Below are positions 3,217 to 31,676 of a stretch of DNA of 32,821 nt, one piece after another. The notes beneath the pieces were generated by a model. It worked only from the letters and a program-made list of their open reading frames with translations, was not told where the DNA came from and searched no databases. Within the stretch, counting starts at the first letter, position 1, and each line of letters opens with the position of its first letter. Made by a program: the position numbers and the translations under genes. This DNA is from a virus, in the IMG/VR virus record IMGVR_UViG_3300042326_000879, positions 1-32,821 of that record. One strand, written 5' to 3'.

Positions 3217-6200
3217 CTAATTTAGTTTTAAGCTGTTCAATTTGCAATTGTTGTTCTTTAATAGCTTCAATAAGTACACCCACTACGTTTCCATAAGATA
3301 CACCATACTCATCTACATCTTTAGCATAAGTAACCACTTCAGGTAACACCTCATTTATTTCTTGAGCTATCACTCCTGTTTGTCTACCTTTTTTTATATC
3401 ATCAATCTTATCATAAAATACACCCCGCATTCTATTCACCTTATCTAATGCATTGTCAATAGTTGTAATGTTTGTCTTCTTTCTTCTATCAGAATAAGCC
3501 ACTATATCATCTGTAGAATATATTGCACCACTTACATACAATCTGTATGAAGATGATGTAGTAGAAGCAGCAACTCCTAAACAGTTATTACCTACATTAT
3601 GATATAAATACCAACGACCATTAGTTTCTCTATATATACCACCATTACCACCACTATCGTACATCATTCCGTTAACACTACTATATTCATCAAAAAAACC
3701 CGCATAACTGTTTTTAGATCCTTTAATTCTCCACTGAGTATAACTGCTACCAGTATTATTTCCTGTTATTTGGTTAGCGTTACTTACTACATTATCACTT
3801 ATAGTATTAATATATAAAAAAGATGCAACTAAAGCATTACCATTTACATGTAAAAGTTGAGATGGACTTGTAGTACCTATTCCAAAATTACCGGCATTTA
3901 TATAACTATTAGAAGTATTATTGGCATTTAATTGTATATTACTTGTACCTCCTTTGTATAGATCCAAAATACCATGTGCTGATACACCTGTACTAGTAGC
4001 TGAAACTGTACAAACATTTAATGTATTATTATAGTTAACATATAAATATATAGAATCACTATATCCAACAATAGTTGTAGCACCAGCTATGAATTTTTCA
4101 TAGCTTGTTCCTGGGTTATCTCTTACAGAAACTCTACCTGATGACTCCAATAAAATACTTGAAGCTACTACACCTCCCCAGTGGAATGCTAATTGTGGTG
4201 CATAAATCACATTTGTATTGCCACTACCTCCTGACTTTTCTCTTATTTGCCAGTTTTGTGTGTAAGCAACTCCTGTTGATGTGGATTGTATATATGAACC
4301 TCCACTTCCTTGTATAATAGGAGTAGAAATAGCACCTACAGTAGCTGTTCCACTTAGGTTTAAAGTGACTGCTCCTAATGTAGTGATATTTGTAATATTC
4401 CATGCACCCATGTTTATATGACCTCCCATAGTGCCACCAGTCAATGGTAAATAAGCAGTGGAAGTGTATGCATTAGAACCAAGTCCTAAGAATGTTGGAC
4501 CTAAAGATGATGCTGTATATGCTTCCCATCTTGAGTTAGTACCATTATATATCATGAAATAAGACACTGTTCCAGAACTATACCCACCACCATAACCTAT
4601 TCCTGCAAATTGTGTACTGTTAGCAGCTGTTCCTGATATGCTTATTCCCCAAGTACCACTTGCACCAGTTCCTGTTAATGTTGGAGAGTATGAGTTATAG
4701 TTAGCTGCGTGAAGAACTTGGTTTCCATTAACATTAATATTTACAGCATTAAAAAGTCCTGAACTACTAAAAGTTCCAAGAGTTGTATAACTTAAAGTAC
4801 GACCTGCTGCTCCTGATGGTGCACCATAAAAATTAATTCCTCCAGCTGAAAATAAAATGTAAGAAGAAGTATCTGTTCCTGGAGCTATATAAGACCCACC
4901 TGTAGTTGTATGCCGAACATTATAACCTATACCACCATAACTACCTCCGGAATATCCTACTACTAGTGCTCTGCCTTCAGTACCTCCTGAACCTAAATTC
5001 ACATTATAAGATCCTATAGCATCATAAAAGTTAGGAGCACTAATAGCAATTGTTGTAGTAGCACCTCTTCCTGTTACAGAAGCTAGTGTATCAGTTTCCG
5101 TATATCCTGTTATATAACCTGCACCATTAACAAGTTGATTAGTATTAGTGGGTATTGTAAATACACCTGTAGAAGAGTTGTATGCACCAGTACCTGCTAC
5201 AAAACTCACTGCAGCACGAACACGTACATCCGTATAATAAAGATTTGTACCCTCACTTACATTTGTTGTAGATAGAGAAGGAAGATCTGCTAAAAGTAAA
5301 GCTCTAAATGTAGGAGCACCTGCTGATCCATTAGGAGCAATAAACACTGTATTAGCAGTTTGGCTAGCTAAGGTGACAGATAGAGTGCCTGATGTAGTGA
5401 TGGGAGAACCTGTTAAACCAAATATTCCAGGTAGAGTAATGGCTACAGATGTAACTGTGCCTGTATTATTTGTATAACCTGATGGATTGGAAGCTAAATA
5501 GTAAGTGGCAGTGTCAAGAGAAAATGTTCCAGCTGCTGTCATCTTAACAAACGGTGTACCTGAAGTCCAAGAAAGAGCAGCCAATCCAGATAGCACTGAA
5601 CTAGCTTGTTGTGCCCCAACAGTGTTATAACTTATAGTGACAGCAGCACTACCATTAAAAGTGATACCTGATGAATTACCACTTCCTGAATTGTTAATAG
5701 TGAGTGAGTTAGTAGTGGTTCCAGCACTACCTCCCCCACCTCCAGGAGGAGCAGCCCATACACCATCAGATCTCAAGAAGTTAGTACTACCTCCACCTGA
5801 AGCTGGAACTAGTCCTTTTAAAAGATCAGTGAAAACATTTAAAACAGTTGTAGCTTGTGCACTAGTTAGTGCTTCTACATTACCAGTGCCACCTGTCACT
5901 CTACCTAATATAGTGGACGTAGATACTTGAGCAAGCTTTGCTAATGTTACAACATTATTAGAAATAAGGGTAGATATGGCTGTATTACCAGAGCCAGTGA
6001 TATCACCTGAGAGTGTAATAGTCTGATTAGCAGTGAGATAGACATTTGTGTCTAATGTAAATAGATTAGCACCAGTCATTTTTACAAATGCTGTAGTGCC
6101 TGAATAAACTAAATTAGTAAGAGAGGTAAGACTTGGGGATTCTCCTTGTGCACCAATGCTGTTATAACTAATTGTAATAGATTGAGATCCATTATAACTA

Positions 6201-6451
6201 GAACCAGAACTATTACCTGACCCTGTATTATTAAATAAAACTACATTTGGATTAGGACTTGAAGAAGATGGAACATAACTTATTGTAACATCACCTGTAC
6301 CAGGATCTATTCCAGTGTATGTTAATTCTATATTGGAACCAGCAATGATTTTTCTAATAACAGCATGACCAGGACTAATTACATTTAAGTCTTGTCTAAG
6401 TATTCCTTGTTCTGGTTGTACGGGCTGTCTTGTTGTAGAATATATTGGCAC
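3200..6451 (-). CDS. Tail fibre with C-terminal intramolecular chaperone (Peptidase_S74)
   Basis: A 1083-aa trimeric-fibre-type protein. Residues 1-60 probably attach to the virion. The body is Gly/Ser/Thr/Asn-rich, with repeated modules such as YLTANQTITLSGDITGSG and NFLRSDGVWAAP. The last 96 residues form a Peptidase_S74 chaperone, starting at S987-D988-R-R-K-K and including GRQTGVIAQEINEVLPEVV and a terminal coiled coil. In this family the chaperone trimerises the fibre and cuts itself off at the Ser-Asp junction; S987 is the expected nucleophile. The start is GTG at 6449-6451, because no ATG in frame is near and the frame opens right after the 55-aa gene. It is likely a receptor-binding protein. 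Confidence 0.92.
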   Translation of the reverse strand: MPIYSTTRQPVQPEQGILRQDLNVISPGHAVIRKIIAGSNIELTYTGIDPGTGDVTISYVPSSSSPNPNVVLFNNTGSGNSSGSSYNGSQSITISYNSIGAQGESPSLTSLTNLVYSGTTAFVKMTGANLFTLDTNVYLTANQTITLSGDITGSGNTAISTLISNNVVTLAKLAQVSTSTILGRVTGGTGNVEALTSAQATTVLNVFTDLLKGLVPASGGGSTNFLRSDGVWAAPPGGGGGSAGTTTNSLTINNSGSGNSSGITFNGSAAVTISYNTVGAQQASSVLSGLAALSWTSGTPFVKMTAAGTFSLDTATYYLASNPSGYTNNTGTVTSVAITLPGIFGLTGSPITTSGTLSVTLASQTANTVFIAPNGSAGAPTFRALLLADLPSLSTTNVSEGTNLYYTDVRVRAAVSFVAGTGAYNSSTGVFTIPTNTNQLVNGAGYITGYTETDTLASVTGRGATTTIAISAPNFYDAIGSYNVNLGSGGTEGRALVVGYSGGSYGGIGYNVRHTTTGGSYIAPGTDTSSYILFSAGGINFYGAPSGAAGRTLSYTTLGTFSSSGLFNAVNINVNGNQVLHAANYNSYSPTLTGTGASGTWGISISGTAANSTQFAGIGYGGGYSSGTVSYFMIYNGTNSRWEAYTASSLGPTFLGLGSNAYTSTAYLPLTGGTMGGHINMGAWNITNITTLGAVTLNLSGTATVGAISTPIIQGSGGSYIQSTSTGVAYTQNWQIREKSGGSGNTNVIYAPQLAFHWGGVVASSILLESSGRVSVRDNPGTSYEKFIAGATTIVGYSDSIYLYVNYNNTLNVCTVSATSTGVSAHGILDLYKGGTSNIQLNANNTSNSYINAGNFGIGTTSPSQLLHVNGNALVASFLYINTISDNVVSNANQITGNNTGSSYTQWRIKGSKNSYAGFFDEYSSVNGMMYDSGGNGGIYRETNGRWYLYHNVGNNCLGVAASTTSSSYRLYVSGAIYSTDDIVAYSDRRKKTNITTIDNALDKVNRMRGVFYDKIDDIKKGRQTGVIAQEINEVLPEVVTYAKDVDEYGVSYGNVVGVLIEAIKEQQLQIEQLKTKLDGISS

Positions 6452-15524: not shown

Positions 15525-17006
15525 TTAATAAGTTTCTAAAGCAATGGTGTTAGCACCCTGAGCAGCGTTTGCGGCAGTAACGAAATAGTTAGTAATAGCA
15601 GTGGTAGCTGTACCGGCCGTTACATTAAATACTAAAGCATATTGATCATTATCATAAGTTCCGTTAGGATTGTTCCAACGAGGAACGTTATGAAGAACAA
15701 TTACTTTATCATATAAAGCACTACGTGTAACTTGAGCTAACATAGGATCTGCTTCAATCTCACGCATACGCAGATGTTCCACTCTAGAACTATCAGGATA
15801 GGCATTCTGAAGATAACGTCCGTCCAAAATCAATTCACGTAATAAGGTTTCACCCAGTCCAGAAACTTGCTGAACAGCTTGAATCTCAATACCATGGCTA
15901 GATAAATAAGGATTGGCAGCAGTGATAGCAGCAGTATTTGCTACAAAAGGAGCAGAAATACATACGTCACCACTCTCGTCAATTACAGAAAGATATGCTA
16001 CCAAAGGTTCCAGTTCATACTTATCAGTAGGAGTGAAAGTACATGCACCAAAAGTAGTTTCTACAAAACCAAGTGTTAATTCAATATGAGGCTGCTGAGT
16101 GTAGGTGAAACTAGCTGCATCAGCATCTGCTGAGTAAGCAGTAGAAGTTAAACCAGTTGCTACACTTGTACCAGGAATAAGAGCTACTGTACCAGCTTCA
16201 GTGTATACATCACTAAAAAACTGCATAGATACAGCCGCACCAATAGTAGGAGCTACAGCTTGTGCAGGAAATTTAACAACAATACTTGTATTAGCAGTTA
16301 CAGTGGTTACAAAGCTATTAGCAGGAATACCAGTACCGATAACTTTTTGACCCACTACAACACCAGTGGTACTAGTCATAGGAATAGTAGCCTGAAGAGT
16401 AGTTACACCAGTAGCAGCACCTGTAGCAGAAAGTACAGTTACATACTTATACACACGAGCCTTAACCATTTGATCAAACAAAGGATAGGTGTTAATTTGA
16501 TCTTTCCATGCTAACAAAGCCATCACTGGATCTTTTTTATGTGTAGCAGTAGTTGTATTTACACAACCAGACCAATAATCAACAACTCTATACAATTGAT
16601 GACTTAAATACCGTAATGCAGGAGAACCTTTAAGATCTATACGAAGTCTGTAAGTTTCATCAGCTGTAAGACCTACACCATTTGCACTTACACGTACAAC
16701 TTGGTTAATAGCACTTTTTGATGGAATTCTAATTACACGACTAATAAACTTAGGGTTTACCAGCTTAGATTTAACGGATTCTTTATATCCGCCATGAACA
16801 CCAATTTTGTCATTCGTGAAATAAGATCCTTGAATAACAAAAAAAGGAGTTACACCAGCAGCAACAGTTGCAAGTGTAGAGTTAGTAGCACTAGTGGGAG
16901 CATACATACCAAGTTGTCCTGCAGTGAGGGCATTAGTAGCTACGCCTGATGCTAGAGTACCAGAGGAAACCAAGAAAGATTTCCTAAACGCGTGTGGAAA
17001 ATACAT
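15525..17006 (-). CDS. Large virion structural protein (possible tail tube or neck protein)
   Basis: A 493-aa protein in its own transcription unit, with a promoter motif upstream and a strong terminator downstream, as expected for an abundant structural protein. It begins MYFPHAFRKSF. Residues 20-330 are Ala/Thr/Val/Ser-rich beta structure, with GYKESVKSKLVNPKFISRVI near 73-92 and a DLKGSPALRYLSHQLYR segment near 125. The C-terminal part (LGETLLRELILDGRYLQNAY and YDKVIVLHNVPRWNN) looks like an alpha/beta domain. I recall such proteins as unnamed structural proteins of environmental phages. It lacks clear sheath or HK97 marks, and the capsid candidate at 19343 is better placed, so tail tube, neck or a second major virion protein is the best guess. 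Confidence 0.65.
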   Translation of the reverse strand: MYFPHAFRKSFLVSSGTLASGVATNALTAGQLGMYAPTSATNSTLATVAAGVTPFFVIQGSYFTNDKIGVHGGYKESVKSKLVNPKFISRVIRIPSKSAINQVVRVSANGVGLTADETYRLRIDLKGSPALRYLSHQLYRVVDYWSGCVNTTTATHKKDPVMALLAWKDQINTYPLFDQMVKARVYKYVTVLSATGAATGVTTLQATIPMTSTTGVVVGQKVIGTGIPANSFVTTVTANTSIVVKFPAQAVAPTIGAAVSMQFFSDVYTEAGTVALIPGTSVATGLTSTAYSADADAASFTYTQQPHIELTLGFVETTFGACTFTPTDKYELEPLVAYLSVIDESGDVCISAPFVANTAAITAANPYLSSHGIEIQAVQQVSGLGETLLRELILDGRYLQNAYPDSSRVEHLRMREIEADPMLAQVTRSALYDKVIVLHNVPRWNNPNGTYDNDQYALVFNVTAGTATTAITNYFVTAANAAQGANTIALETY

Positions 17007-17048: not shown

Positions 17049-17477
17049 TTATTTAAGAAAAAGTAGTTTATATTTAATACTGTTAATTGTGCTTTTTACA
17101 TTATCAAGATCATTACTTATTTCACTGTAAGGCATAATAGACTGTAAAGAGTTTATCATACTTGTCATAGTTCTTAAATAAGCTAATGCTTCTTGAACTG
17201 AGTTTAAATTAGTAGGAGCTACATCACCGCTATATTCCAAAAGTTTTTCAGAAGCTCCTTGAAAACCCTCAGCAAGTGTATCAGCATGTCCTGGAAGAGC
17301 GTCATATAGTTCATTAAGAGCTTTATGACTAGAAAAAGAACCTACACCTGTCACTTTTAAATGAAGCTTATGAAAACTTGCAGAAGCATTCATAAGTTCA
17401 GTTACACAAGCTGCAGTTTTAGCTTCTACAGATGTTCCTGCTGCATTTGATGTACCAGGTCTTTGTAACTTTTGCAT
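17049..17477 (-). CDS. Dps/ferritin-like protein in the virion gene cluster
   Basis: A 142-aa helical protein. Residues 28-75 match the Dps core: KLHLKVTGVGSFSSHKALNE and then LYDALPGHADTLAEGF. H39, H51, D66 and E70 have exactly the H-12-H-15-D-4-E spacing of the Dps ferroxidase site (E. coli H51, H63, D78, E82). Dps proteins form 12-subunit shells that oxidise iron with peroxide and bind DNA. The rest is predicted as further helices of a four-helix bundle. At 142 residues it is slightly short for Dps. The ATG overlaps the connector gene stop as TAATG, so the two are coupled. It could be an iron- or DNA-protecting virion or infected-cell protein, or a ferritin-fold structural part that kept these residues. 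I see the motif; activity is inference. Confidence 0.65.
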   Translation of the reverse strand: MQKLQRPGTSNAAGTSVEAKTAACVTELMNASASFHKLHLKVTGVGSFSSHKALNELYDALPGHADTLAEGFQGASEKLLEYSGDVAPTNLNSVQEALAYLRTMTSMINSLQSIMPYSEISNDLDNVKSTINSIKYKLLFLK

Positions 17478-18178
17478 TAACTATTTTTTACACTATTTTG
17501 TAAGTTTCTTTGATATTGATTCATACTTTCTATGTCACCAGCAAGTATTGAAGCTGCTTCATCAACAAGTATTTCACAGATGTCCTCTTTAAGTTCACAA
17601 TCCACATTTGTAGTGTAAACAGATCCCGTACTAGGATTTACACAATTTATAAACTGAATATCTTTTGGTTTTCTATAGTAGACAAGACTTACATTTTCTA
17701 CATCAAATAAATTATTTGTATAGATTTTTATTTTATCTGCACCCACTGTACAAAAGGTTTCAGCCCATTCAAATGAAGGACCTTTAAAATCATCTGATAA
17801 AAGAATATCTACGTTAGCTTCTTCCACCTGATATATAGAAAGACTCACACTTGGACAACAACTTGTCTTTGCAAAACCACTCACTCTTACAAAATGCAAG
17901 TAGTTAGAAGGAATAACTTCTGTTTCGTAATAGTTATTATTCTCTGTTGATTTTAATGTAACAGTATTTAAAAGAACTTGTAAATCATCTATTGTGTTAA
18001 TACTCTGTTCAGCTGCTTCTTTTTTAGAATTTAACCCATGAAGTTGTCTGCGAGTCCATTCAATTTGTGCTTTATTAAAAGCTTCTTGAATTTGCCAACA
18101 TTCAATGTTATCATAATCAAGACTAGCAAGTTTATTTAAACGTTGTTTAATTTTAATTTGTAACAGGTTATTATTCAT
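17477..18178 (-). CDS. Head-tail connector (ring/adaptor) protein candidate
   Basis: A 233-aa protein starting with a helical N-terminus (KIKQRLNKLASLDYDNIECW, QIQEAFNKAQIEWTRRQL), a beta-rich middle (YLHFVRVSGF, KIKIYTNNLFDVENVSLVYY) and a C-terminal helix (EDICEILVDEAASILAGDIE). Helix, beta and helix order with this start is how I remember the ring or adaptor proteins below the portal in crAss-like phages. Position supports it: after the capsid gene, before tail genes. The specific ring is not determined. Confidence 0.65.
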   Translation of the reverse strand: MNNNLLQIKIKQRLNKLASLDYDNIECWQIQEAFNKAQIEWTRRQLHGLNSKKEAAEQSINTIDDLQVLLNTVTLKSTENNNYYETEVIPSNYLHFVRVSGFAKTSCCPSVSLSIYQVEEANVDILLSDDFKGPSFEWAETFCTVGADKIKIYTNNLFDVENVSLVYYRKPKDIQFINCVNPSTGSVYTTNVDCELKEDICEILVDEAASILAGDIESMNQYQRNLQNSVKNS

Positions 18179-18183: not shown

Positions 18184-19200
18184 TTAAGCATTCCAGTATT
18201 TCTCAACCTTCTTAGTGAGATCTATTAAAATTTCTTCATTAAGAGGGTTTTTAAGATATTCAGCAACATCAGAAAGATTTCTTCCGAGCATTGTTGATGT
18301 TTGCATATGATAGATAAAACCATCTCCTTTTGTAGCAATAAACTTATAATAAGAACTATCTTTAACTATTGCTTTGATTTTTAAAGACTCCATATCTAAA
18401 CCTGCAGCGTCTAAAAATCTTTGAGCAGTTTTACGTTTATCCTTTTCTATAAGTTCACCATTGATATACTTATCCATATTATCATAGATGATATCATTTG
18501 GTGTAGACTTCTTATATTGAGCACTGTTAGGATCTAACAATTTTGCTACATATAAAAGTTTATTTTGATTTTTGTCAAACAACTTTTGAAGTTCAGATAA
18601 AGCTTTGTTACGCAATTTCTTCACTTCAGTTTGTATAGAAGCTGTTTGTTCAAGTTTATCAAGATAGAATTTAGGAGAAACAGCCATTTTTCTAGCTTCT
18701 TCTAAACTTTTTGATACTATTGAGAAACCACCTGCTTCTATAGCATATAATCTAATCAGATCATAAGGATCAGTATCAGGTTCTAAATACACAGGTTCAT
18801 TACCACATCTAATTTTAATCTTATCCCAAAACTCAAAATTATCTGGTTTAAGCAGTTTAACCTTATTCCAAAATTGTTCATCACTAGGATCAACTACATT
18901 AGAAGCAAGTTCTTTTTCAAGTTGAGACACAACAACTTTAATCTGTTTAATCTTTGCTTCTTGTTCATCTAAAGGAAGTTCTCTTATATCAGGAGAAAAC
19001 TCATTAAGACCTGTTACATAACGTTTAATACCGTTAATTTCTAAACAAGCTAATTGTTCCTCATGAAAAGCACCATCAAAAAGACTAAGTCCATATTTTT
19101 GTAATCCCATATTTTCAATAACAGGATTAAAATAAGGACGAATAGCAATACTAGATTTCTTGTTCTGTGGATACTTTTCCACAATAGTCACACTACTCAT
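18184..19200 (-). CDS. 338-aa protein encoded after the capsid gene, unknown function
   Basis: A Lys/Glu-rich, mainly helical protein that I do not recognise. The start MSSVTIVEKYPQNKKSSIAI follows an A-rich leader (AAATAAAAAAAACC) just downstream of the three-hairpin element. A coiled-coil segment lies around residues 75-110 (EQEAKIKQIKVVVSQLEKEL) and another near 190-215. Near the end, YYKFIATKGDGFIYHMQTST suggests a small beta domain. It lies between the capsid and connector genes, so it may be a head completion, decoration or packaged internal protein. Its separation from the capsid gene by an RNA structure suggests its level is set separately. Confidence 0.7.
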   Translation of the reverse strand: MSSVTIVEKYPQNKKSSIAIRPYFNPVIENMGLQKYGLSLFDGAFHEEQLACLEINGIKRYVTGLNEFSPDIRELPLDEQEAKIKQIKVVVSQLEKELASNVVDPSDEQFWNKVKLLKPDNFEFWDKIKIRCGNEPVYLEPDTDPYDLIRLYAIEAGGFSIVSKSLEEARKMAVSPKFYLDKLEQTASIQTEVKKLRNKALSELQKLFDKNQNKLLYVAKLLDPNSAQYKKSTPNDIIYDNMDKYINGELIEKDKRKTAQRFLDAAGLDMESLKIKAIVKDSSYYKFIATKGDGFIYHMQTSTMLGRNLSDVAEYLKNPLNEEILIDLTKKVEKYWNA

Positions 19201-19342: not shown

Positions 19343-20962
19343 TTAGAATGAACCACCAGTTACAGGATTTCTCATAACAATCTTTAACACCTTGGTTGGA
19401 TCTTTAACCCAAATAGCTGGCATTGTTTGTGTCATGAATACACGATATCCGTTGAAGTTTCCAGAAGACTGGAATCCTTGACTACGTCCCATGTAATCCA
19501 TAGTACCATTTTGATAGAACCATTTCAATTGATTATCCCAAGATAATTTCAACAAGAAGATGTTGTCATTAGTATTCTCAGTGATATCAAATATGATGAA
19601 GTTGTAGCTAGACAGAGGGAAACCATCTATAATAGGATTCTCAATATCATTAGTATGAATATTATCAAACGCTGGGTTCAATACAAACTTAACATTAGCC
19701 AAGAACGGAATAACGTATTGAGTGTAAGCAAAACCAAAGTTCAGATCCATACCTTTACCTGTGATGGCACCCACCTCAGAAGCATTAATAACAAGACCTG
19801 AGTTGATAGCTTCACGCTTAATGGCTTCATTTACAAGACGCATACCACCCATACCAGTTTGTACAACCAGTGAACGTTTAGGATCTGGTCCTTTAAATTC
19901 AACCTTACCATTAAAGAAGTTGAAGATTTCAGATTTGAAAAGATCTAAGTTAAAAGAAGCTTTGTTATAAACACGTTTGAAAGAGTTATCAAGTTGTTTC
20001 CAAAGACCTACAGATAATCTGATATCATCTGGACCATCTTGCTTCACCTTTCCACCCTGTCCCCACATTAAGTAGTTCTCAATGTCATTAGCAATCTTGG
20101 TCAGATGTGCAGACTCAAGAGCAGTGAGGAAAGAACGAGTGAGTTGTCCAGAAGCATAAGCTTTCTTAACATAGTCTTTACCCATTTTAGAAGCAATATC
20201 TTCTAAACTATTTAAAGAAGGATCAACATTTTTGTCAAAGTTTCTCCACAATTCAATAACAGGTACAGTACCATCAGCACGAAGACCACCTTTTAACATC
20301 AAGTCTGCACGAGAGCTAATAGAATAGTGTACGTGAGCTTCAGCACCACCAACGTAGTTATAAAATTCACGGAAACCACCATTCACACTACCAAGATCAG
20401 AAAAACGCTCACCATATTCACCACGAGCAGAACTCTTACGGAAGAATTTAGTTCCCACTTTTAAGTAACGGTTCTCTAAGAAACGAGTGCTATCACTATT
20501 TACAAGTTGTACAGTGTAAATGAAACCATCACCAGCAGGTATGATATCATCTGCAGTGACATACATTTCAACTCCATTATACTTGTCATAAGTGATAATG
20601 TCACCATTACCAAAAGAACGTTTGTTAATTTTAATCTTGAAAGATTGACCATCAAGACCTTTAGTGGTGTTTGCAGATTCAACATCTTCTAAAATATAAG
20701 GAAGATCTTGAGCAACAGGAACTTGCCACTTGTATTCACCACGGTTGTTATCAACCATAATGACGTTCTTTCCACCAAAACTGGACATTTGATATAAAGG
20801 CATTTCTACCTTCTGTGCCATAGCCCACAGATCAACAGGACCTAAGTCAGTTGGTTCTGCACTCTTAAGCAGATTTGAAAGGTGATAAGAATCTACGTGA
20901 GAGCTAGTTTGGTAGCTGGTATCCCGTAGGAAAATACCATTGTTTAAACTTGGGGTAGGCAT
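19343..20962 (-). CDS. Major capsid protein (probable)
   Basis: A 539-aa protein directly after the portal and scaffold-like genes, the usual place of the major capsid protein. The length fits large-phage HK97-fold capsid proteins. It starts MPTPSLNNGIFLRDTSYQTS, then has a helix with DLWAMAQKVEMPLYQM, beta strands (DIITYDKYNGVEMYVTADDI), a long helical region near 250-300 and a C-terminal part ending GYRVFMTQTMPAIWVKD. I cannot match a short signature motif, so the call rests on gene order, size and overall look. No standard promoter motif lies in the 32-base upstream gap, so it is probably expressed from the unit that starts before the scaffold gene. Confidence 0.75.
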   Translation of the reverse strand: MPTPSLNNGIFLRDTSYQTSSHVDSYHLSNLLKSAEPTDLGPVDLWAMAQKVEMPLYQMSSFGGKNVIMVDNNRGEYKWQVPVAQDLPYILEDVESANTTKGLDGQSFKIKINKRSFGNGDIITYDKYNGVEMYVTADDIIPAGDGFIYTVQLVNSDSTRFLENRYLKVGTKFFRKSSARGEYGERFSDLGSVNGGFREFYNYVGGAEAHVHYSISSRADLMLKGGLRADGTVPVIELWRNFDKNVDPSLNSLEDIASKMGKDYVKKAYASGQLTRSFLTALESAHLTKIANDIENYLMWGQGGKVKQDGPDDIRLSVGLWKQLDNSFKRVYNKASFNLDLFKSEIFNFFNGKVEFKGPDPKRSLVVQTGMGGMRLVNEAIKREAINSGLVINASEVGAITGKGMDLNFGFAYTQYVIPFLANVKFVLNPAFDNIHTNDIENPIIDGFPLSSYNFIIFDITENTNDNIFLLKLSWDNQLKWFYQNGTMDYMGRSQGFQSSGNFNGYRVFMTQTMPAIWVKDPTKVLKIVMRNPVTGGSF

Positions 20963-22385: not shown

Positions 22386-25139
22386 TTATTTACCTGTCTT
22401 TTTACTAGATGATTTTACATCATATTTGTTCTTGTTTTCTCTAGCAATTTGTAATTGCTTGTCAGCTATTTCTTTTTGAGCCTGCAACTTTTCTCTATCT
22501 AATTGTAGTTTTTGTTGATTAGTGCTTGTTTTATTTACTTCTTGCTCACGTTTAAAGTTCATTTGCTCTTGATAATTCTCCTGCTTTCTAATCCCTTCTA
22601 AAGCATCTTGATAGTCAGACTGCTTATTTTCATTTATATCTACAGCTGAACCATATCCTGCAGCCCGTATTTCAGCCACTGTGATGTCTTTCTGTATCAT
22701 TTTGTCATCACGATCGGCCTGAGCTTGAAGATCCATTTGTTTTTGTTTTTCCTGACTAGCCATAAGTTCTTGCTGCATTTGCTGCTGAATTTGCTGCTCT
22801 TGTTGTTTTTGAGCAAGCATTTTTTCTTCAGCAGCTTTAAGAACACCTGTGAGTTCAGCTATAGATTCAGATTTAATAACATTTCCAAGATCGTATATAG
22901 AAGCTCCGGTGGTATTATTATTAATAGCTAGTTGTTTAAGCTGCTCCATTACAGCACGGGAATTAGTTTTAGTAGTGCAGAATATATTAAGATCTCTAAG
23001 AAGAAGGTCTGTACCGTTCATCTCAAAGTTCATTTTCTCATCCTTAGACGTGATGTATGTTAGTCTTACACTAGGTTTAGTGGAATGATAATACTGAGCC
23101 AGGTCAGTTCTCATCTGATGAACTCTAGGCATTAGATTATCACTATGCTGTATAAAGTATTGTTCTGTTTGAGCATAGCTAGCATTCATAGCTTGTTCTA
23201 CGGCCGTAGCTGTTTGTTGTTGAGCTATTTGAGCTCCCATACGTTGAGGATTCAAACCAATCACTTCAAATGCTTGATTTTTAAAATATGTAGCAAGTTG
23301 AATACGAGATAGTAAACGATTTGTTTGCTCAAGATTTAACACTTGATAATGCTGAAAATTTAATGCATTCTCAGTGTTAGTGATGGAAGTGTCTAAGGGC
23401 AACATCTGAAAATTCTTCATAGCTACATAAGCCTTAGCTAAATTGTTCTTTCCCCAATCTTCACCCATAGAATGACGTGGTAGAGAATTTTGATCCAATA
23501 GAATAACTGTTCCAAGCTCATCTACTAATATATCAGCTATTTGGTTGTTTACAATATTAAAGCTAATTTGGTAGGGTTTCATAAGATCTACCATAGATGT
23601 ACTACGGGAGTTTCTGTCTCCAAATACTGCTCCTTCTACAGGAAGCTTACAACCATATAATGTATTATCACCTTTAAACTGAAATGGAATACGTCCTGGT
23701 TTACCTCCATTAAGTCCTAAATAGATAGGATTTATACCTCCTGGATTATTTTGACCCCAGAAAGCTGGTCTATTGGGTCCAATCTTAATGCCTCCCCATG
23801 TTTCATTAATCCAAATCCAATCTATATGCTCACCAAATATTAAGTTATCTTTAGACTTTTGTTTATATAAAGCTGTGTTATACAATGGTTTATCTGTAAC
23901 CTTGTATTTTTCACTAATTATTTCTTGTATAATTTCACCTTCTTCTGTGATTTTAGTAAGATGACCTAGTTTACGTTGAGACTTCCAATAAATAGTGGAA
24001 ACTCTAAGCATATGAGATTTACCAAAATCCACTACATCTTCAGAATCTGAAAGAATCCATTCTACAATATCACCTGTACCAAATTGATTATCATGTATAG
24101 ACATATGTTGTCTATAAGCAAGAGATGGCATTTGTGTATTCCAGTCATGAGATTTTGTAGCGTCATAATAACTTCCATCATTTTGATAACCTGGTATCAT
24201 ATAACCTGAAGAACGGACAGGATAAACTGATTCTAAAGACTCTAATTGTTCTTGAGTCATCATCCAACCATACTTATCAATAACGTCTGGTAAAGATAGG
24301 AGATCCATCTTACCTACCCAGTTTCCCTGGGAAATGTAACGTACATCAGGAGATTTATGATAGAATGTTAATAACGGATTCCAAAGTTCTAGCTCATAGT
24401 CATCTTCCATCATTCTAAAATGCCAAAACTCACGATCTGTAATAAGCATGTCACGGAATGCACGTTCTTCAAGTTCTTGCATTTTAAACCTTTCTTCGTC
24501 TACACTCATTTGATGAGAAGCCCACTCCTCAATCATTGATCTATAGTCTTTACGAAAGAATGATTCTATCTCAGGAAGTTGTTTTAAATTATCAGGAGCT
24601 GTTGCTTTTTGCATTTCTTCACTATCTAACTCCACTCCCATATTGAGCATTTGCATCATCATCTTACGTTCAGCATCCTGTAAAAGGACGTTTTCAAGCA
24701 TAGCTCTTTTTTCTTCTAACATCTCGTTATAAGAAATATCATCTACGGCTTTAAACATAATACGAGAAGAACGCTTAGAAAACTCGTTACATAGAACATT
24801 TACTACGTTGGGAATAATAGGATAGAATTTGAGTTCTAAAGCTGATTCATCCTCTTTAGTTAGAGTGTCTATTAGATCAGCCATCTCATTATCTTCTTCT
24901 ATAATATAGTCTGTTTTGTCAATTAGCCCTTTAGAAAGCTTGTAGTTTTTCATTAATCTACGAGCATTACGTCTAAGTTGCTTCATTCCTTGGAACTCTA
25001 GCCAGTCAAGATTGTGAGACCTCCATTCATCATCTTTCTCTTTTTCTGGCAAAAACTGAATTGGCTGGGTAAGTGTACCCATCTTCTTATGTTCAGCTTT
25101 TTTACCAGCTTTTAGATCTAGAGCATTATATAACTGCAT
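22386..25139 (-). CDS. Portal protein
   Basis: A 917-aa protein between the terminase and scaffold/capsid genes. The N-terminal two thirds look like a portal core: helical MQLYNALDLKAGKKAEHKKM, ALELKFYPIIPNVVNVLCNE and MSVDEERFKMQELEERAFRD, then beta and clip-like regions, and the crown-side region GLNPQRMGAQIAQQQTATAV. The last 150 residues are very rich in Gln, Lys and Glu (MLAQKQQEQQIQQQMQQELM, QQKLQLDREKLQAQKEIADK). I associate long Gln-rich tails with portals of crAss-like phages. It is larger than most portals (about 500-700 aa), partly because of this tail. A portal is the 12-subunit channel through which DNA is packed. Confidence 0.85.
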   Translation of the reverse strand: MQLYNALDLKAGKKAEHKKMGTLTQPIQFLPEKEKDDEWRSHNLDWLEFQGMKQLRRNARRLMKNYKLSKGLIDKTDYIIEEDNEMADLIDTLTKEDESALELKFYPIIPNVVNVLCNEFSKRSSRIMFKAVDDISYNEMLEEKRAMLENVLLQDAERKMMMQMLNMGVELDSEEMQKATAPDNLKQLPEIESFFRKDYRSMIEEWASHQMSVDEERFKMQELEERAFRDMLITDREFWHFRMMEDDYELELWNPLLTFYHKSPDVRYISQGNWVGKMDLLSLPDVIDKYGWMMTQEQLESLESVYPVRSSGYMIPGYQNDGSYYDATKSHDWNTQMPSLAYRQHMSIHDNQFGTGDIVEWILSDSEDVVDFGKSHMLRVSTIYWKSQRKLGHLTKITEEGEIIQEIISEKYKVTDKPLYNTALYKQKSKDNLIFGEHIDWIWINETWGGIKIGPNRPAFWGQNNPGGINPIYLGLNGGKPGRIPFQFKGDNTLYGCKLPVEGAVFGDRNSRSTSMVDLMKPYQISFNIVNNQIADILVDELGTVILLDQNSLPRHSMGEDWGKNNLAKAYVAMKNFQMLPLDTSITNTENALNFQHYQVLNLEQTNRLLSRIQLATYFKNQAFEVIGLNPQRMGAQIAQQQTATAVEQAMNASYAQTEQYFIQHSDNLMPRVHQMRTDLAQYYHSTKPSVRLTYITSKDEKMNFEMNGTDLLLRDLNIFCTTKTNSRAVMEQLKQLAINNNTTGASIYDLGNVIKSESIAELTGVLKAAEEKMLAQKQQEQQIQQQMQQELMASQEKQKQMDLQAQADRDDKMIQKDITVAEIRAAGYGSAVDINENKQSDYQDALEGIRKQENYQEQMNFKREQEVNKTSTNQQKLQLDREKLQAQKEIADKQLQIARENKNKYDVKSSSKKTGK

Positions 25140-25144: not shown

Positions 25145-25480
25145 TTAATTATTTAGATCAACTGTAAGAAACGTATTAGTGACAGAAGTTCCTAGATTTG
25201 GATTACTAACAGTAGTGCAAGTTCCTGTACTATCATAAGTATAAATAACTGGTGTTGTACCACTACCAATATTAGTATATGGATTAGGAGTGTTAATTAT
25301 TGGATTGTTCCAACCAGGATAGTATTTAACCGGAGATTCTGCAACAGCTTCTTCTTCTTCTTTCTCTTCTTCTAGATCTTCTTCTTTTAAAAGCAAAAGT
25401 GCCTCTTCTAACGTGAGAGAACTATCTTTTATTAATCTACTTAGAATAGCAACTTTATCTTGATACAGTGAGTTTTCCAT
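25145..25480 (-). CDS. 111-aa protein between terminase and portal, unknown function
   Basis: The start overlaps the terminase stop as TAATG, so translation is coupled. The N-terminal half is helical and very acidic (LTLEEALLLLKEEDLEEEKE). The second half is Asn/Thr/Pro-rich and without clear structure (PGWNNPIINTPNPYTNIGSG). It may be a packaging or portal accessory protein. The function is not recognised. Confidence 0.65.
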   Translation of the reverse strand: MENSLYQDKVAILSRLIKDSSLTLEEALLLLKEEDLEEEKEEEEAVAESPVKYYPGWNNPIINTPNPYTNIGSGTTPVIYTYDSTGTCTTVSNPNLGTSVTNTFLTVDLNN

Positions 25481-27681
25481 TATTTTAAGTTTTTAAAGGG
25501 TGAACGAGCTATTTTCATACCATTAGAAGCTCTTCCAGAAGAACCCATGTGTCTGAAAGGTCCCCAATTTAATTTACTAAATTTTTGTGAGTTATCCAAT
25601 TTTTTATTCCCATACTCTAAACGCTTAGCAAGACCTCTGTTAGATTGTTGCACCTTTGCAAATGCTATAAGTGCACAAAAAGAAACAAGTCTATCCACGT
25701 TTACACCATCTCTGTATGCTTGCATTTCTTTTAACAACATGATGTCTGGAATACGTTCAACACCATATATTGTTTTAACTATTTCTCCATCAGGCTTAGT
25801 TTCATGATCTAGTTCCTCTCTTAAAAATTCAATTCCATAAGATAGAATTGTGCCCTTAAAAAGTGTACCTACGTTTTTCCAACCATACTCTTGAAAGACA
25901 TTTCTGTTGGCACCTATATCTTTTAAGAACAAAATCATGTCTTTAGGAACTAAATAACGCTGTTTCTTTTTAGAAATCATGTATTGTATGAACAGAGCTA
26001 CGTTATTTTCCACTATAGTCCATGCATTATACCATTCTATAAGAAGTTCTAAACGTTCATGTGTTTTATTAATATCATCAAATCTTCCACACCAAGAAGC
26101 AACTATACCATCTCTTTCTATACTGTTCTTCACCTTACCATCTCCGTCATCTCTAATTATTTCTACAGGGTTTTTATAAATATATATAGCACAAAGAGAA
26201 TCTGAGGTTGTTGTCTTACCCTCTCCCACTGGATCTACAGAAGCATAATATGTTCCAAACTGGGGATCTTTCATAGGACGCTCATATACACATATCACTC
26301 CCTCTTTGTTTTCTAGTTTTTTAGAAATTGGAAATTCCATAATAGGAATCTTTCTAGAGGGTTTATCTACAATCTTTCCTTCAGCATCACGAGAAAGTTC
26401 CAGATATTCCACTGAATACTCTCTATCTTGAATACGTTGCATTTGTTTTGAAACCAAATGTGGGGGAAATACACTTATTTTTCTTGTAGCAAAAGCCTCT
26501 TCTATATTACGAGGACTTTGAGAAAGTTCCAGCTGATATGCTTCAGGCTTTAGTTCACTCTTAGCTTTTTCAAATCTTTTCTCTAAAGCTTCTAAAGCTT
26601 CTTTCACCATAGAGTTACCAAACTCATCTATGTACGGAGGCATGCTCCACTGTTCAGGAATAAAAAGACCAGTGATACCTATTGTACCATCTTTATCTAT
26701 TAGATTGGATTTTACACCATAAAAACCATTCTCTTCAGGATGAAGAACATATTCTTTTAAAGGTTCACATTGATCAAGATCACCCACAGATCCTGCAGCA
26801 ATAAATTGACCAGTGATTATTTCACCAGATTTTAAAGCTGGTTTAATAAATCCATATGTATCATCCATTTTAGGAGCAATACCTGCTTCTTCATGAAAGA
26901 AATAAGTTACGGGACCACCTACACCATTTGTTGGATCTTTCTCAAAAGAATAACCATTTATAGTTGATTTAAGACCTTTATAAGTATCTCGGCCGTTAAC
27001 CCTCACTTTAATTTTTTGCTCCCAAGCAAATACCTTGTCAGGTTCTGCTGGTCTATACCAAGCAGTGTGTTCATTAATAAAGTTTCTATATTCATTTAGA
27101 AACTTCCAAGAACCTTTTTCATTAATATAATCTTTTAGAGAAGATCCTATTTTACAAATGGAACCTGATTCAAAAACCCATTGATTAATCAGCTTAGCCA
27201 TGTGAAAATAAGAAGAAGCAATTTGACGTTTTTTAAGAATAATAGCATGCTTGTAATTAAGCTCTCCTAATAATTCATAAAGAGCCATGTGATATTGAGC
27301 ATCTCTCACCTTTGCAAAATCAAACTTTTTTTCTTCCTTATCATATATGGGAAGAAAGTTAAGCCACATATAGTAGTCACGACTGATATACCATTCACTA
27401 TTATCATTTTTGACAATAATGCCTGATTTACACTTTATTTTCTGGTCATCCCAGTAAATTCTAAAGTCTTTGGATTTAAATGGAGCAGCACAATAAAAAC
27501 CTTGTTTTCTAAACTTACGTCCTTCTGAATTAAATACTAAAGAACTTTCATCAAAATTATACTCACCAGGTTCTTTAAATATAGAAAATATATAATCTGC
27601 AAAGTCTTTTCTTGTAAAAAAAGATGTTGTAGTCCATTGATTATTTTCATATGTAGGAACTTCTATAAACATTTTATTCAT
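25480..27681 (-). CDS. terL: Terminase large subunit
   Basis: A 733-aa DNA-packaging motor and nuclease. The ATPase part (about residues 90-400) has a variant Walker A region at 150-157 (KKRQIASS) and a Walker B-like strand ending in acidic residues (VTYFFHEEAG, E264-E265). QSPRNIEEAF near 388-397 is typical just before the nuclease part. The C-terminal RNase H-like nuclease has YYASVDPVGEG with D483, SDSLCAIYIY, IVENN, and a late VDRLVSFCALIAFAKV segment. The extended N-terminal 90 residues are common in large Bacteroidota phage terminases. The tRNA gene at 27705-27797 lies just upstream, and a 5-bp hairpin (27684-27697) lies right before the ATG. Confidence 0.92.
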   Translation of the reverse strand: MNKMFIEVPTYENNQWTTTSFFTRKDFADYIFSIFKEPGEYNFDESSLVFNSEGRKFRKQGFYCAAPFKSKDFRIYWDDQKIKCKSGIIVKNDNSEWYISRDYYMWLNFLPIYDKEEKKFDFAKVRDAQYHMALYELLGELNYKHAIILKKRQIASSYFHMAKLINQWVFESGSICKIGSSLKDYINEKGSWKFLNEYRNFINEHTAWYRPAEPDKVFAWEQKIKVRVNGRDTYKGLKSTINGYSFEKDPTNGVGGPVTYFFHEEAGIAPKMDDTYGFIKPALKSGEIITGQFIAAGSVGDLDQCEPLKEYVLHPEENGFYGVKSNLIDKDGTIGITGLFIPEQWSMPPYIDEFGNSMVKEALEALEKRFEKAKSELKPEAYQLELSQSPRNIEEAFATRKISVFPPHLVSKQMQRIQDREYSVEYLELSRDAEGKIVDKPSRKIPIMEFPISKKLENKEGVICVYERPMKDPQFGTYYASVDPVGEGKTTTSDSLCAIYIYKNPVEIIRDDGDGKVKNSIERDGIVASWCGRFDDINKTHERLELLIEWYNAWTIVENNVALFIQYMISKKKQRYLVPKDMILFLKDIGANRNVFQEYGWKNVGTLFKGTILSYGIEFLREELDHETKPDGEIVKTIYGVERIPDIMLLKEMQAYRDGVNVDRLVSFCALIAFAKVQQSNRGLAKRLEYGNKKLDNSQKFSKLNWGPFRHMGSSGRASNGMKIARSPFKNLK

Positions 27682-27704
27682 CCAACCCTATTGGGTTTTT
27701 TAAG

Positions 27705-27797
27705 CTGTAAGGGGACGATTTGAACGTCCAAGCTTTTATTATTAGTAAAAGCACCACCGAGACAAGGTGGCGTGTCTACCAGTTTCACCACCTTACA
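27705..27797 (-). tRNA. Atypical class II tRNA, anticodon GUC
   Basis: A 93-base cloverleaf. The acceptor is TGTAAGG/CCTTACA, the D-arm is Leu-like (TGGTGAAACTGGTAGACACG), the anticodon stem is CCACC/GGTGG, and the variable arm is long with a 7-bp stem GCTTTTA/TAAAAGC. The T-arm is canonical GGACG-TTCAAAT-CGTCC, with discriminator G and no encoded CCA. The anticodon loop is TTGTCTC, so 34-36 would be GUC (Asp). Asp tRNAs have short variable arms; long arms belong to Leu, Ser and Tyr. Residue 37 is U instead of the usual purine. It fills the gap between terL and the upstream gene, 3 bases from that gene's stop. It may be non-canonical, decaying, or serve a non-decoding role. Confidence 0.8.
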
Positions 27798-27800
27798 TTG

Positions 27801-28316
27801 TTATTCTTGATCATAACTTAAACGTTGCCCACCTCTCACTTGGCTTTGTTGTTCCTCTTCCAGATCGCGTAGTGTGCCTTTAAAGCTCTGACGTATTGCT
27901 TCAAACTTTGCTGCGGCATTAACAAGTGCTGTAATGTTACCGTCTCTACCATGTTCAATTTCTGTGGTCTCCATGTATTTAGCAAACCTATCAAGCATGC
28001 TTTTAATACCAGCATATGCTCTGTACGTTGGTGTTTCGTAGAGCTTTTTACACATTTCAAAAGCATTAAGAATAAGATCTTCTTCAGGCGAAAAGTCAGC
28101 TTCAACTTGTTGTAAAATGAGTTCTTCTTTTTCTGATTCTGGTACATCAAAAAATGGATTTACGTCCGGACTAGGACATGTCATGTAAAATAAATAGGAA
28201 TAAATTTTTAAATAATCATCTGGATATTCATCCATTATATTTTTTAAAAACTTTAATGTGTAACAGTGTTCTGTTGGAATCACCCTACTATTCTGTATGT
28301 CAAATAATTTAACCAT
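27801..28316 (-). CDS. Conserved-type protein encoded upstream of terL (small terminase candidate)
   Basis: A 171-aa protein from the ATG at 28316 (MVKLFDIQNSRVIPTEHCYT). The longer frame to 28403 overlaps the previous gene, so this start is preferred. It is almost all helical, with CPSPDVNPFFDVPESEKEEL, CKKLYETPTYRAYAGIKSML and IEHGRDGNITALVNAAAKFE, then a charged C-terminus. I remember this protein as conserved next to terminase genes in Bacteroidota phages. Position suggests a small terminase or another packaging factor, but no helix-turn-helix is evident, so the role is inference. Confidence 0.7.
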   Translation of the reverse strand: MVKLFDIQNSRVIPTEHCYTLKFLKNIMDEYPDDYLKIYSYLFYMTCPSPDVNPFFDVPESEKEELILQQVEADFSPEEDLILNAFEMCKKLYETPTYRAYAGIKSMLDRFAKYMETTEIEHGRDGNITALVNAAAKFEAIRQSFKGTLRDLEEEQQSQVRGGQRLSYDQE

Positions 28317-28326
28317 TTGTTTTTCT

Positions 28327-28581
28327 TTAGAGACACTCCACGTCTTGTTTTGTAACCTGAATACCTTCGGGGTTAAGCTTCTCTCCGGCCGTAGGATTAC
28401 CATAAACTACTAAATCATTTTGGTCCACTGTACGAAGTATGCCTGTTTTATAAAACTTCACTATAAACTGTGGATTAGAATGTATGCTTCCAGCAATCAT
28501 AAATAATGCCACACCATATCCGTGCTTTTTTTCATATACATCAAATGGATTGACTATTTCGTGTATTGTCTGAACTATCAT
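28327..28581 (-). CDS. 84-aa small protein, unknown function
   Basis: It starts at a TAATG overlap with the nuclease gene stop. The sequence (MIVQTIHEIVNPFDVYEKKH, then GYGVALFMIAGSIHSNPQFI) suggests a compact beta-rich fold with a Gly-Tyr-Gly strand. It is probably translated together with the nuclease and the putative packaging gene. No domain is recognised. Confidence 0.65.
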   Translation of the reverse strand: MIVQTIHEIVNPFDVYEKKHGYGVALFMIAGSIHSNPQFIVKFYKTGILRTVDQNDLVVYGNPTAGEKLNPEGIQVTKQDVECL

Positions 28582-29411
28582 TAGACTTTTTTTAGTTTAT
28601 GTCTATTATCTTGTAACCAGTGAATAAGAGAAATCACTTCTTTTTTTAAATAGGGAATATCATATTGCACTATATCTTTTACAATAGGATCTCCATTAGA
28701 ATCTAAAGCTGTAATAGGATTTCCGTATTTATCTTTACCCACTTCTTCAAATAAAACGTGGTGTATTGTCATACCACCAAATACAAGACGGGGGTTGTGT
28801 TTTAAAATCATAAACATGTACATACTAAGCTGTAATGCATAATGATTTAAATGACAGTCATCTAAATGTGAAACAGGAGCAAACATCTTTTGAGAAACTC
28901 CTTCCCAATTAGTATAACCTTCTAGCTTAATTTCTTTGTTTGTTTTATAATCAGTTACATACACCTCATTATTAATCACTTCAACCTTATCTGACTGACC
29001 ACATATTCCAGCTGATTTTAAATAGACAAAATGTTCTGGATAAATACCGTTGGCAAGCTTTTGGTTAGGAGAATACTTGACACCTTCTTTTTCAATAGGG
29101 TTTATAACAGGTAGTTCTACACCGTGAACTTCTATTGTTTTTAATTCAGAAAGATCTTTCTCTCTACAATTATGATACCATGTACCTAGTGATGTAGCTC
29201 TGTTAGCTTCGTTTTTCCAAGCTTCTTTAATTTGATCTGGTGTAAGTCCATACCATTTGGATTTTTTACTCCTTGAAGATTTTAAAGCAATAGCATCTGC
29301 ATCAAAAGGTTGCTTAAAATTAGAAATAAAAGAAGTGACACTTAACCAAGAAATATCATCAGGTTCTAAACTATAATATTTGTGGTTTTCAGGAATAAAT
29401 TTTACTACCAT
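28581..29411 (-). CDS. PD-(D/E)XK nuclease (RecB/Cas4-like)
   Basis: A 276-aa nuclease. Visible motifs, in order, are GTWYH (H80), PEH (E126), GQSD (D141), the core TDYKTNK with D154 and K156, and QLSMY (Q194, Y198). This His, acidic, D-x-K, Q-x-x-x-Y order is the RecB-family signature. It lacks the four Cys of Cas4 iron-sulfur enzymes. Possible roles are processing of replication intermediates or packaging ends, or recombination. It overlaps the next gene and lies 5 bases after the Cys-rich gene, in a packaging and DNA-handling cluster. Confidence 0.85.
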   Translation of the reverse strand: MVVKFIPENHKYYSLEPDDISWLSVTSFISNFKQPFDADAIALKSSRSKKSKWYGLTPDQIKEAWKNEANRATSLGTWYHNCREKDLSELKTIEVHGVELPVINPIEKEGVKYSPNQKLANGIYPEHFVYLKSAGICGQSDKVEVINNEVYVTDYKTNKEIKLEGYTNWEGVSQKMFAPVSHLDDCHLNHYALQLSMYMFMILKHNPRLVFGGMTIHHVLFEEVGKDKYGNPITALDSNGDPIVKDIVQYDIPYLKKEVISLIHWLQDNRHKLKKV

Positions 29412-29416
29412 AATAT

Positions 29417-29749
29417 TTAATTAAGACCTAGCTTTTGATTTAATAAATCCTCTTCTTCTTGTGTCATCTCAGATTTCCAATGTCCCATTGGACATTCAGA
29501 ACTAAGAGATCTTATTTTAAACTTTAGTGAACATCCACATCCTCCCATTTTTTCATTGCAGCAAGGAGTGGTTCCAGGAACTAAACAACCATCATCATTT
29601 TCTGTATAAAGATCACAAAAAAGACAAATCTTCATTCTTTCTTCAGCAATATGTTCAACATCTTCACGTTTAAATATGCTATTTGTCACTCCCTCAAGTA
29701 TCTGCCCTTTAGCTTTCCAAATTCTGATTATGTTTTCTCGTAGACTCAT
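29417..29749 (-). CDS. Cys-rich zinc-binding protein, unknown function
   Basis: A 110-aa protein. The N-terminal 35 residues are basic and helical (RENIIRIWKAKGQILEGVTN). The centre has eight Cys and a His in zinc-site spacing: C42-x2-C45, C55, C63-C64, C71-x-C73, then C86 and H90 (KICLFCDLY, GTTPCCNEKMGGCGC, SECPMGHW). This would hold one or two zinc ions. It may bind nucleic acid or a polymerase. The start lies 41 bases inside the HU-like gene, an unusually long overlap. Confidence 0.75.
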   Translation of the reverse strand: MSLRENIIRIWKAKGQILEGVTNSIFKREDVEHIAEERMKICLFCDLYTENDDGCLVPGTTPCCNEKMGGCGCSLKFKIRSLSSECPMGHWKSEMTQEEEDLLNQKLGLN

Positions 29750-30113
29750 ATGTTGTACGTTTATGCATTTTTACAAAATCTGCTCTTTGTTGTTCCACAT
29801 CTAACATTGTTTTCATGTTCTTAAGATCGTATAAATTTTCTGCTGTTTTATAACGAGCTGTTATTTGTTGCATACCTTTTAATCTATTCTTTTCTTCAAA
29901 TCTCTCAAGCATTTGAATCTTATCATCTAGCTTCCAATGCTTAATAACAAAATCTCCTAAATTAGTTAGGTGCACTCTTGTATGTGTAAGTGCACTTAAG
30001 TTTTTTCTAACTTCTACCCAGTGGTAGGAAATAACATCTTCTACAGTTTTTACAGGTAGATTTAGTTCATTTGCTACATCTGGTATAAACTCTTTAGCCT
30101 TCTTTGGTCGCAA
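29709..30113 (-). CDS. HU/IHF-like DNA-binding protein
   Basis: A 134-aa protein. Residues 1-60 resemble the HU/IHF N-terminus: two helices (FIPDVANELNLPVKTVEDVI, SYHWVEVRKNLSAL) followed by strands RVHLTNLGDFVIKHW, which match the L-x-x-x-G-x-F element. The C-terminal half is not the usual beta arm but a long charged helix (KMHKRTTYESTRKHNQNLES), so it may be a divergent or helix-extended form. HU-like proteins bend and condense DNA and occur in many Bacteroidota phages. Its ends overlap both neighbouring genes. Confidence 0.7.
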   Translation of the reverse strand: MRPKKAKEFIPDVANELNLPVKTVEDVISYHWVEVRKNLSALTHTRVHLTNLGDFVIKHWKLDDKIQMLERFEEKNRLKGMQQITARYKTAENLYDLKNMKTMLDVEQQRADFVKMHKRTTYESTRKHNQNLES

Positions 30114-30902: not shown

Positions 30903-30905
30903 ACG

Positions 30906-31166: not shown

Positions 31167-31182
31167 AAAATAAATGTTTGGT

Positions 31183-31488: not shown

Positions 31489-31499
31489 AATTAGTGTTT

Positions 31500-31530
31500 G
31501 TTTACATTAATAATATACTAAATAAGTTTA
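31500..31530 (-). promoter_or_regulatory. Phage-type promoter motif (copy d)
   Basis: The minus strand reads AACTTATTTAGTATATTATT and then AATGTAAAC. The core is at 31512-31518, 24 bases before the ATG at 31488. It would start the accessory and packaging unit. A separate 10-bp palindrome ACACATGTGT lies at 31581-31590 in the spacer to the tRNA-Gln gene. Confidence 0.6.
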
Positions 31531-31599
31531 AACCCTCCAAATTTAGTTTTAACTTCTGTAAGTATATATGTAAATTATTAACACATGTGTATAAGCTAG

Positions 31600-31670: not shown

Positions 31671-31676
31671 CTATAG

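Follow-up and report, generated by a model that had tools for sequence, protein, structure and literature searches.

To our knowledge, the carriage of iron by phage particles is an open proposal, and the Ferrojan Horse proposal is cited by the study of Vi01-like phages. The described system closest to our locus is the phage protein family DUF5856/phrog_858 (T4 MobD.6, rI.-1 of RB49-type phages, LIMEstone1 ORF78, Sajous1 gp217), whose members share the HxxH, H, D and E residues of the protein analyzed here and resemble it at the C-terminus. In the "ferritin" operon of Vi01-like phages (gp214-217), gp217 belongs to this family and was found in purified virions; it comes from another phage group, and the part of the text available describes no exchange with ferritin and reports that dependence on tonB or feoB was not found (PMC10892097). 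Bacterial Dps (PF00210) has the same fold (Z approximately 15-17) and the same ligand spacing. Bacterial non-heme ferritins (3qz3 and others) occupy this slot in related phages and mostly bear its tag too (see below), but belong to a different branch of the superfamily. In the virion of PhicrAss001, ring proteins have the same fold as the gene upstream of ours, and the word "ferritin" occurs 0 times in the text (PMC10172136).

An earlier note on this DNA expected a phage Dps-like protein to be unusual. It is not rare, since tblastn with the LIMEstone1 member finds matches in 1,435 of 50,697 phage records and Dps-type proteins in phages have already been published (PMC8008677, available in part). 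DUF5856/phrog_858 is thus a known and widespread phage family. No relatives were found in bacterial genomes at the search sensitivity used, and DUF5856 is named in no paper that our literature search found. Many phrog_858 records are labelled "starvation-inducible transcriptional regulator" though the fold is Dps-like, which suggests that this label is misleading for a large phage family; we met with no functional evidence in favor of the name. A BFVD protein of a gut crAss-like phage is named DpsA; none is so annotated in positions 60000-101662 of cr106_1 (L325), its capsid-gene stretch. What is new here is the slot: its ring gene, its tag and its exchange between Dps and ferritin, although for the exchange we do not claim absence from print.

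The window, i.e., the whole stretch of DNA analyzed, is a virus record of 32,821 bases. Its crAss capsid, portal, terminase and ring genes were all matched, and the gene order is similar in cr106_1; the source is an aquatic crAss-like phage. The best named relative of the capsid protein is from Leptolyngbya phage Lbo-JY46 (28.5% identity), with weaker matches in 18 more records, including gut crAss-like and Cellulophaga phages. The Dps-like ORF, which has an ATG start, lies at the coordinates and among the virion genes (Table 1) where it had been placed before, on the minus strand. Elsewhere in the window there are four tRNA genes (Asp, Gln, Cys, Trp; 27704-31827) and a tail-fibre-like protein with a C-terminal Peptidase_S74 chaperone domain (3200-6451).

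Table 1. Features of the window around the Dps-like gene, with the basis of each assignment.
Feature	Position	Strand	Basis
Dps-like protein, 142 aa (DUF5856 / phrog_858)	17049..17477	-	profiles, fold model
N-terminal tail, residues 1-16	17430..17477	-	pLDDT under 50 for residues 1-14
Slot tag L4-Q5-R6	17460-17468	-	tag pattern search
H36, first His of the family's HxxH, invariant	17370..17372	-	alignment
H39, predicted iron ligand	17361..17363	-	sequence, alignment
H51, predicted iron ligand	17325..17327	-	sequence, alignment
D66, predicted iron ligand	17280..17282	-	sequence, alignment
E70, predicted iron ligand	17268..17270	-	sequence, alignment
Upstream gene, 233 aa, tail-barrel ring protein by fold	17477..18178	-	7qoj_D match; relative of phi4:1 gp062 (MS-annotated)
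Downstream gene, 493 aa, putative virion protein	15525..17006	-	positional counterpart of phi4:1 gp061
338 aa gene, between capsid and ring genes	18184..19200	-	position of cr106_1 "dsDNA binding domain" gene, position only
Major capsid protein, Crass_capsid	19343..20962	-	profile match 3.6e-31
Virion protein, 180 aa	14842..15384	-	relative of phi4:1 gp056 (MS-annotated)
Portal protein	22386..25139	-	phrog_6547, 5.7e-88
Large terminase	25480..27681	-	phrog_6681, 1.9e-62

The protein matches DUF5856 (PF19174) with 54.5 bits (cut-off 34.6) and phrog_858 with an E-value of 1.1e-19. The score against the general Ferritin model, PF00210, is 17.6 bits, below the cut-off of 24.5, in which the protein differs from bacterial Dps, and the NCBIfam DpsA model gives 12.4 (threshold 300). 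Family profiles reach several Dps entries in PDB (best E-values 7.3e-5 and 2.2e-4). An AlphaFold2 model (49 rows, pLDDT 84.7) is a ferritin-like four-helix bundle, as one would expect had the earlier reading been right, with helices at residues 17-41, 47-76, 94-114 and 118-139. The top ranks of a Foldseek search with this model are a Dps (7.0e-4) and a ferritin, and the best VIA-align match is Mycobacterium smegmatis Dps2 (Z 16.9 over 127 residues). Since other ferritin-like proteins (YciE, mini-bacterioferritin) also score Z 15-16, the fold identifies the protein more firmly as ferritin-like than as Dps. Dps proteins have a short helix in the BC loop; our model has no helix of at least four residues between positions 77 and 93, a stretch of lower model confidence. 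Taken together, the profiles and the predicted fold support homology to Dps. A weak Dps profile match in L093/L094 (13.9 bits) was rejected, the aligned protein being without the ligand His residues. Three predicted viral proteins in BFVD named "Prohead protease" (A0A6J7WIS1, A0A6J7WPK9 and A0A6J7XDU5) contain a stretch matching the Dps-like model (E 6e-4 to 6e-3); if this is a Dps domain fused to a capsid protease, it would be a further link to the particle.

The earlier note pointed to a complete Dps iron site, and the sequence agrees: H39, H51, D66 and E70 stand at 12-15-4 spacing (H-12-H-15-D-4-E). The four residues align with those of Bacillus brevis Dps (phmmer against PDB, E 0.00095). 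In canonical Dps, as we take it to be, the first ligand is flanked by Trp and the second is followed four positions on by Asp; here these are L40 and N55. The pattern arose in 46 of 200,000 shuffles of the 142 amino acid protein. Among 3,515 ORFs of at least 50 amino acids in L001-L081 (L081 is the window's own piece and L001 has the identical protein sequence), 81 have the motif, which is also the number of Dps homologues there, all with the motif. A chance motif was rejected on these shuffles and ORF counts.

Conservation among relatives was the other check on this site. None of H36, H39, H51, D66 and E70 varies across the 98 clade rows aligned (the window protein is one row; the identical L001 and the cut ORF of L139 are excluded), and the HxxH, H, D and E residues are all invariant in 13 representatives across DUF5856/phrog_858. 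Over five queries the spacing is kept in 80/80, 43/44, 14/16, 80/80 and 79/80 loci among the matches listed, where the first set is the best 80 of 280 relatives and the other two sets of 80 are the best 80 of at least 599 and the best 80 of 102. The single misses in the 44-locus and 80-locus sets are ORFs cut at contig ends; in the two exceptions of the 16-locus set a step is shorter by one residue. The loop between the ligand His residues is three residues longer in the present protein than in the T4, Ackermannviridae and P19250A members; in representatives of the last two query groups (P0002, P0007, P0008), where it is three residues shorter, the pattern takes the first His of HxxH.

The start of the Dps-like gene overlaps the stop of the upstream gene by one nucleotide (TAATG). 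The upstream product was modelled (pLDDT 83.6), and its fold corresponds to that of three PhicrAss001 tail-barrel chains, among them 7qoj_D (Foldseek E 2e-12, TM 0.75). Because of this fold match and the description of ring proteins in the available part of the PhicrAss001 paper (PMC10172136), we read the gene as a putative crAss tail-barrel ring protein; this agrees with the connector-like gene of the earlier note and sharpens it. The same note placed the Dps-like gene before a large virion protein. The positional counterpart of the 493 amino acid gene in Cellulophaga phage phi4:1 (gp061) is indeed MS-annotated, but sequence homology between the two proteins was undetected, and the gene is likely to encode a virion protein. 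Profiles of the ring, 493-type and 180 amino acid proteins gave insignificant matches against PDB (best E 0.34, 0.83 and 0.17, respectively).

How general is this arrangement? A first Dps query has the ring gene directly upstream in 77 of 80 loci (the best 80 of 280); one of the other three has no room upstream, and L021 and L022 have an extra 208 amino acid gene there. With a second query the ring gene is directly upstream in 41 of 44 loci, and a crAss portal gene in the other three. Six of the 44 (L097, L100, L101, L104, L120, L124) are contigs also among the 80, and several loci are near-copies; merged, the two queries give 112 of 118 contigs among the matches listed. In two other phage groups the family gene lies directly behind a portal or head-tail connector gene, in 16/16 and 72/80 loci among the matches listed (in the latter group three of the remainder have no room and five differ; PHROG families were checked on representatives). 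The ring-linked and portal-linked groups fall in three parts of the family tree, the rows of which were hand-chosen and include several long branches that leave the deep order unfixed. The slot itself is kept across the clade, and a lone, recently acquired gene was rejected as the whole story, though the sister phages L089-L096, Lbo-JY46 and phi4:1 gave neither a match to Dps in the slot nor one to ferritin in the loci examined, and seven whole sister-phage records gave no Dps match in a search run without a positive control. The Dps and ferritin loci were found via those proteins, a route by which clade members with neither would be missed. In one sister phage a 270 amino acid ORF, homing-endonuclease-like by eye, lies in the same slot between the ring and 493-type genes (L091:13307-14119).

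The position among virion genes could reflect timing and dose alone, if the cage acts only in the dying host as a late cytoplasmic sink for iron and peroxide during DNA replication and packaging. Such a role agrees with other phages in which the family gene is placed away from the virion genes, next to rI or beside a holin gene, and with the P19250A query, in which none of the 80 upstream genes among the matches listed was recognised by four probes (three portals and one ring protein; other kinds of portal would escape them). Gut phages with both Dps and catalase have been interpreted in this way (PMC8008677, available in part). Left unexplained is why, in three parts of the family tree, the gene recurs right behind a ring or portal gene, and we regard a purely cytoplasmic role as rather unlikely.

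The extra gene of L021 and L022 encodes a bacterial-type non-heme ferritin that is extended at its front by approximately 48 residues (PF00210, 6.2e-23; PDB 3qz3, 2.6e-22). A scan with the L021 ferritin gave 66 loci, in 39 of which the ring gene is upstream: the order is ring - ferritin - 493-type gene in 33, ring - ferritin - Dps in three and also in L328 with a cut Dps, and ring - ferritin at the contig end in two. Thus, four ring-slot loci, all of one lineage, carry both genes. The other orders are portal - ferritin - Dps (4/66), Dps - ferritin (1/66) and portal - ferritin (1/66), and 21 ferritins have other contexts. In L374-L391, except L378 and L383, tagless ferritins of other phages adjoin long ORFs, and many of these ORFs continue past the end of the locus.

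A tree of the ring protein was built from 68 hand-chosen rows (38 Dps, 21 ferritin, 2 both, 7 none). Each of the two labels has to change 15 times on it, and at least 12 of the Dps changes and at least 11 of the ferritin changes are forced by well-supported branches. The ferritin label clusters weakly (24 of 500 shuffles are as low). Two pairs of loci show the boundaries of the exchange. L332 (ferritin) and L077 (Dps) share approximately 96% DNA identity over approximately 5 kb with one gap: the identity ends 27 nt into the gene, just past the tag, and resumes after the stop, over the 93 nt present in the L077 locus. In L357 (ferritin) and L125 (Dps), where identity is 95% across the ring gene and 88% across the following 5 kb, homology breaks off at the start codon and returns at the stop. 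Record-wide, the Dps profile was found in 0 of 8 ferritin-slot records (a search likewise run without a positive control, in records that may be incomplete), and a slot-type ferritin in 1 of 13 Dps-slot records, again perhaps incomplete, the one being L021, which was included as a known double.

The Dps-like protein and the ferritin are thus exchanged repeatedly in one slot. The two differ in surface and in oligomer, bacterial non-heme ferritin being a 24-mer. The ferritins retain what we take to be the FtnA iron-site pattern, in that the conservation of E65, E98, H101, E142 and E178 among 45 distinct proteins is 95% or higher. Because Dps and ferritin share iron oxidation and storage yet replace one another repeatedly, iron handling appears to be the selected property, and this suggests that the slot wants an iron cage and is indifferent to which kind. 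The bundle might instead have been reused as a part of the particle or its assembly, with the iron site a relic, a reading that suits a gene adjoining ring and portal genes. It is highly improbable in our judgment: the iron-site residues are invariant in the 98 clade rows and the 13 family representatives, and the replacing ferritin keeps an iron site of its own.

Both proteins of the ring slot tend to share a short N-terminal tag. Counting distinct ring-slot proteins, the pattern [LIV][KQR][RK], three residues long and degenerate, occurs within the first 24 residues in 83 of 94 Dps and in 21 of 25 ferritins (11 and 4, respectively, are without it). It is found in none of 20 ferritins elsewhere, in none of 66 Dps of other contexts (0/3 in the crAss portal slot, 0/63 in the two portal groups) and in 42 of 649 control ORFs, i.e., other ORFs of L001-L080 with spurious ones included. 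These counts exclude L139 (cut) and the P19250A-type, T4-like and Ackermannviridae loci; L135-L137 were counted apart. Compared with the representatives examined of the other DUF5856 phages, ring slot, tag and ferritin exchange are seen only in the present group. The tag shows slight codon mixing (TTA, AAA and AGA dominate), and in at least one pair, L332/L077, the tag is common by shared DNA ancestry of the first codons; for these two reasons, selection on the peptide is likely but falls short of proof. A tag linked to the slot on two different folds is also left unexplained by an iron store confined to the host cytoplasm.

In E. coli Dps, a Lys-rich tail binds DNA. It is tempting to ask whether the tail here, modelled with low confidence and slightly basic (median net charge +2 over 122 proteins), likewise holds packaged or replicating DNA and so shields it against Fenton damage. 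The slot ferritins have a similar tail. The median protein pI, however, is approximately 6, and in the portal-slot crAss-like phages L360 and L367 the Dps and the ferritin share a non-basic front end, MALDIN or MIDIN (two phages only). DNA binding as the purpose of the tail therefore seems very unlikely to us. The Dps-like and ferritin genes of these two phages lie side by side (L360:4959-5917, L367:4297-5241).

Relatives of the protein have been detected in purified virions. LIMEstone1 ORF78 is listed among structural proteins confirmed by MS, with three unique peptides and 28.21% coverage, on a virion list that also has rIIB and ligase (PMC3296691, available in part). Sajous1 gp217 gave 10 spectra in CsCl-purified virions; its authors modelled it as a ferritin and proposed a "ferrojan horse" role, and infection by Vi01-like phages was independent of tonB and feoB (PMC10892097, likewise in part). 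In CsCl-purified T4-like virions, gp108 of ValerieMcCarty03 and gp100 of ValerieMcCarty04 gave 26 and 27 PSMs, from preparations that are contaminated: the ValerieMcCarty03 list has 153 proteins with two or more PSMs (PMC13119998, in the part available). Our family check was positive for LIMEstone1 ORF78, Sajous1 gp217 and ValerieMcCarty03 gp108, the last being the only one of the T4-like pair that was checked. Detection in virions stands against a protein that acts in the host cytoplasm only. The MS-positive relatives (two Ackermannviridae and two T4-like phages) are distant and have other gene contexts, the T4-like gene adjoining rI. By analogy with them, we infer presence in the virion for the aquatic crAss-like group, where an association of the Dps-like protein with the particle is likely.

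From the computed fold, residue conservation, slot, exchange and tag, we infer the following scheme, which we consider probable. The protein of the slot would be an interchangeable iron cage, probably docked by its tag to the particle or the assembly machinery, that guards DNA from iron and peroxide. It would probably be made late, alongside the tail-ring and capsid genes. The Dps-like subunit would bind and oxidize iron at a two-subunit site formed by H39, H51, D66 and E70, as the sequence predicts, and the slot would select for an iron cage over any particular fold, Dps-like or bacterial-type non-heme ferritin. The [LIV][KQR][RK] tag probably docks the cage to a partner from the same operon, a ring or capsid protein, or to packaged DNA. 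Docking at the particle or assembly site is suggested because the gene lies among ring and capsid genes and the tag is tied to the slot. Once docked, the cage would come to lie inside the particle, on its surface or where it is assembled, and would keep free iron and peroxide off the DNA. The earlier note offered two functions, iron or peroxide chemistry and a virion part with a Dps fold; repeated replacement by ferritin favors iron chemistry as the selected property, with association with the virion likely.

The barrel of PhicrAss001 has constrictions under 50 A, and the capsid has an internal low-density zone of approximately 1.1 x 10^7 cubic A (PMC10172136, in the part available). With such dimensions a cage could fit in the capsid but not be ejected intact, so protection of the packaged DNA is more likely than delivery of the cage to the host. 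In its strongest form, which we put forward tentatively and with somewhat less than even confidence, the claim would be that virions of aquatic crAss-like phages bear an iron-loaded cage, internally or on the surface, which is docked by an N-terminal address peptide specific to the slot, with Dps and ferritin swapped as an allelic cassette.

Two iron-storage proteins that replace one another in a single slot amount to a natural swap experiment, which points to iron handling as the selected trait. The exchange also supplies a tag, a partner gene and defined pairs of phages for testing. If the proposal is true, single virions would carry mineral iron, and the tag would be a transferable signal for loading the virion, with a role comparable to that of encapsulin cargo peptides.
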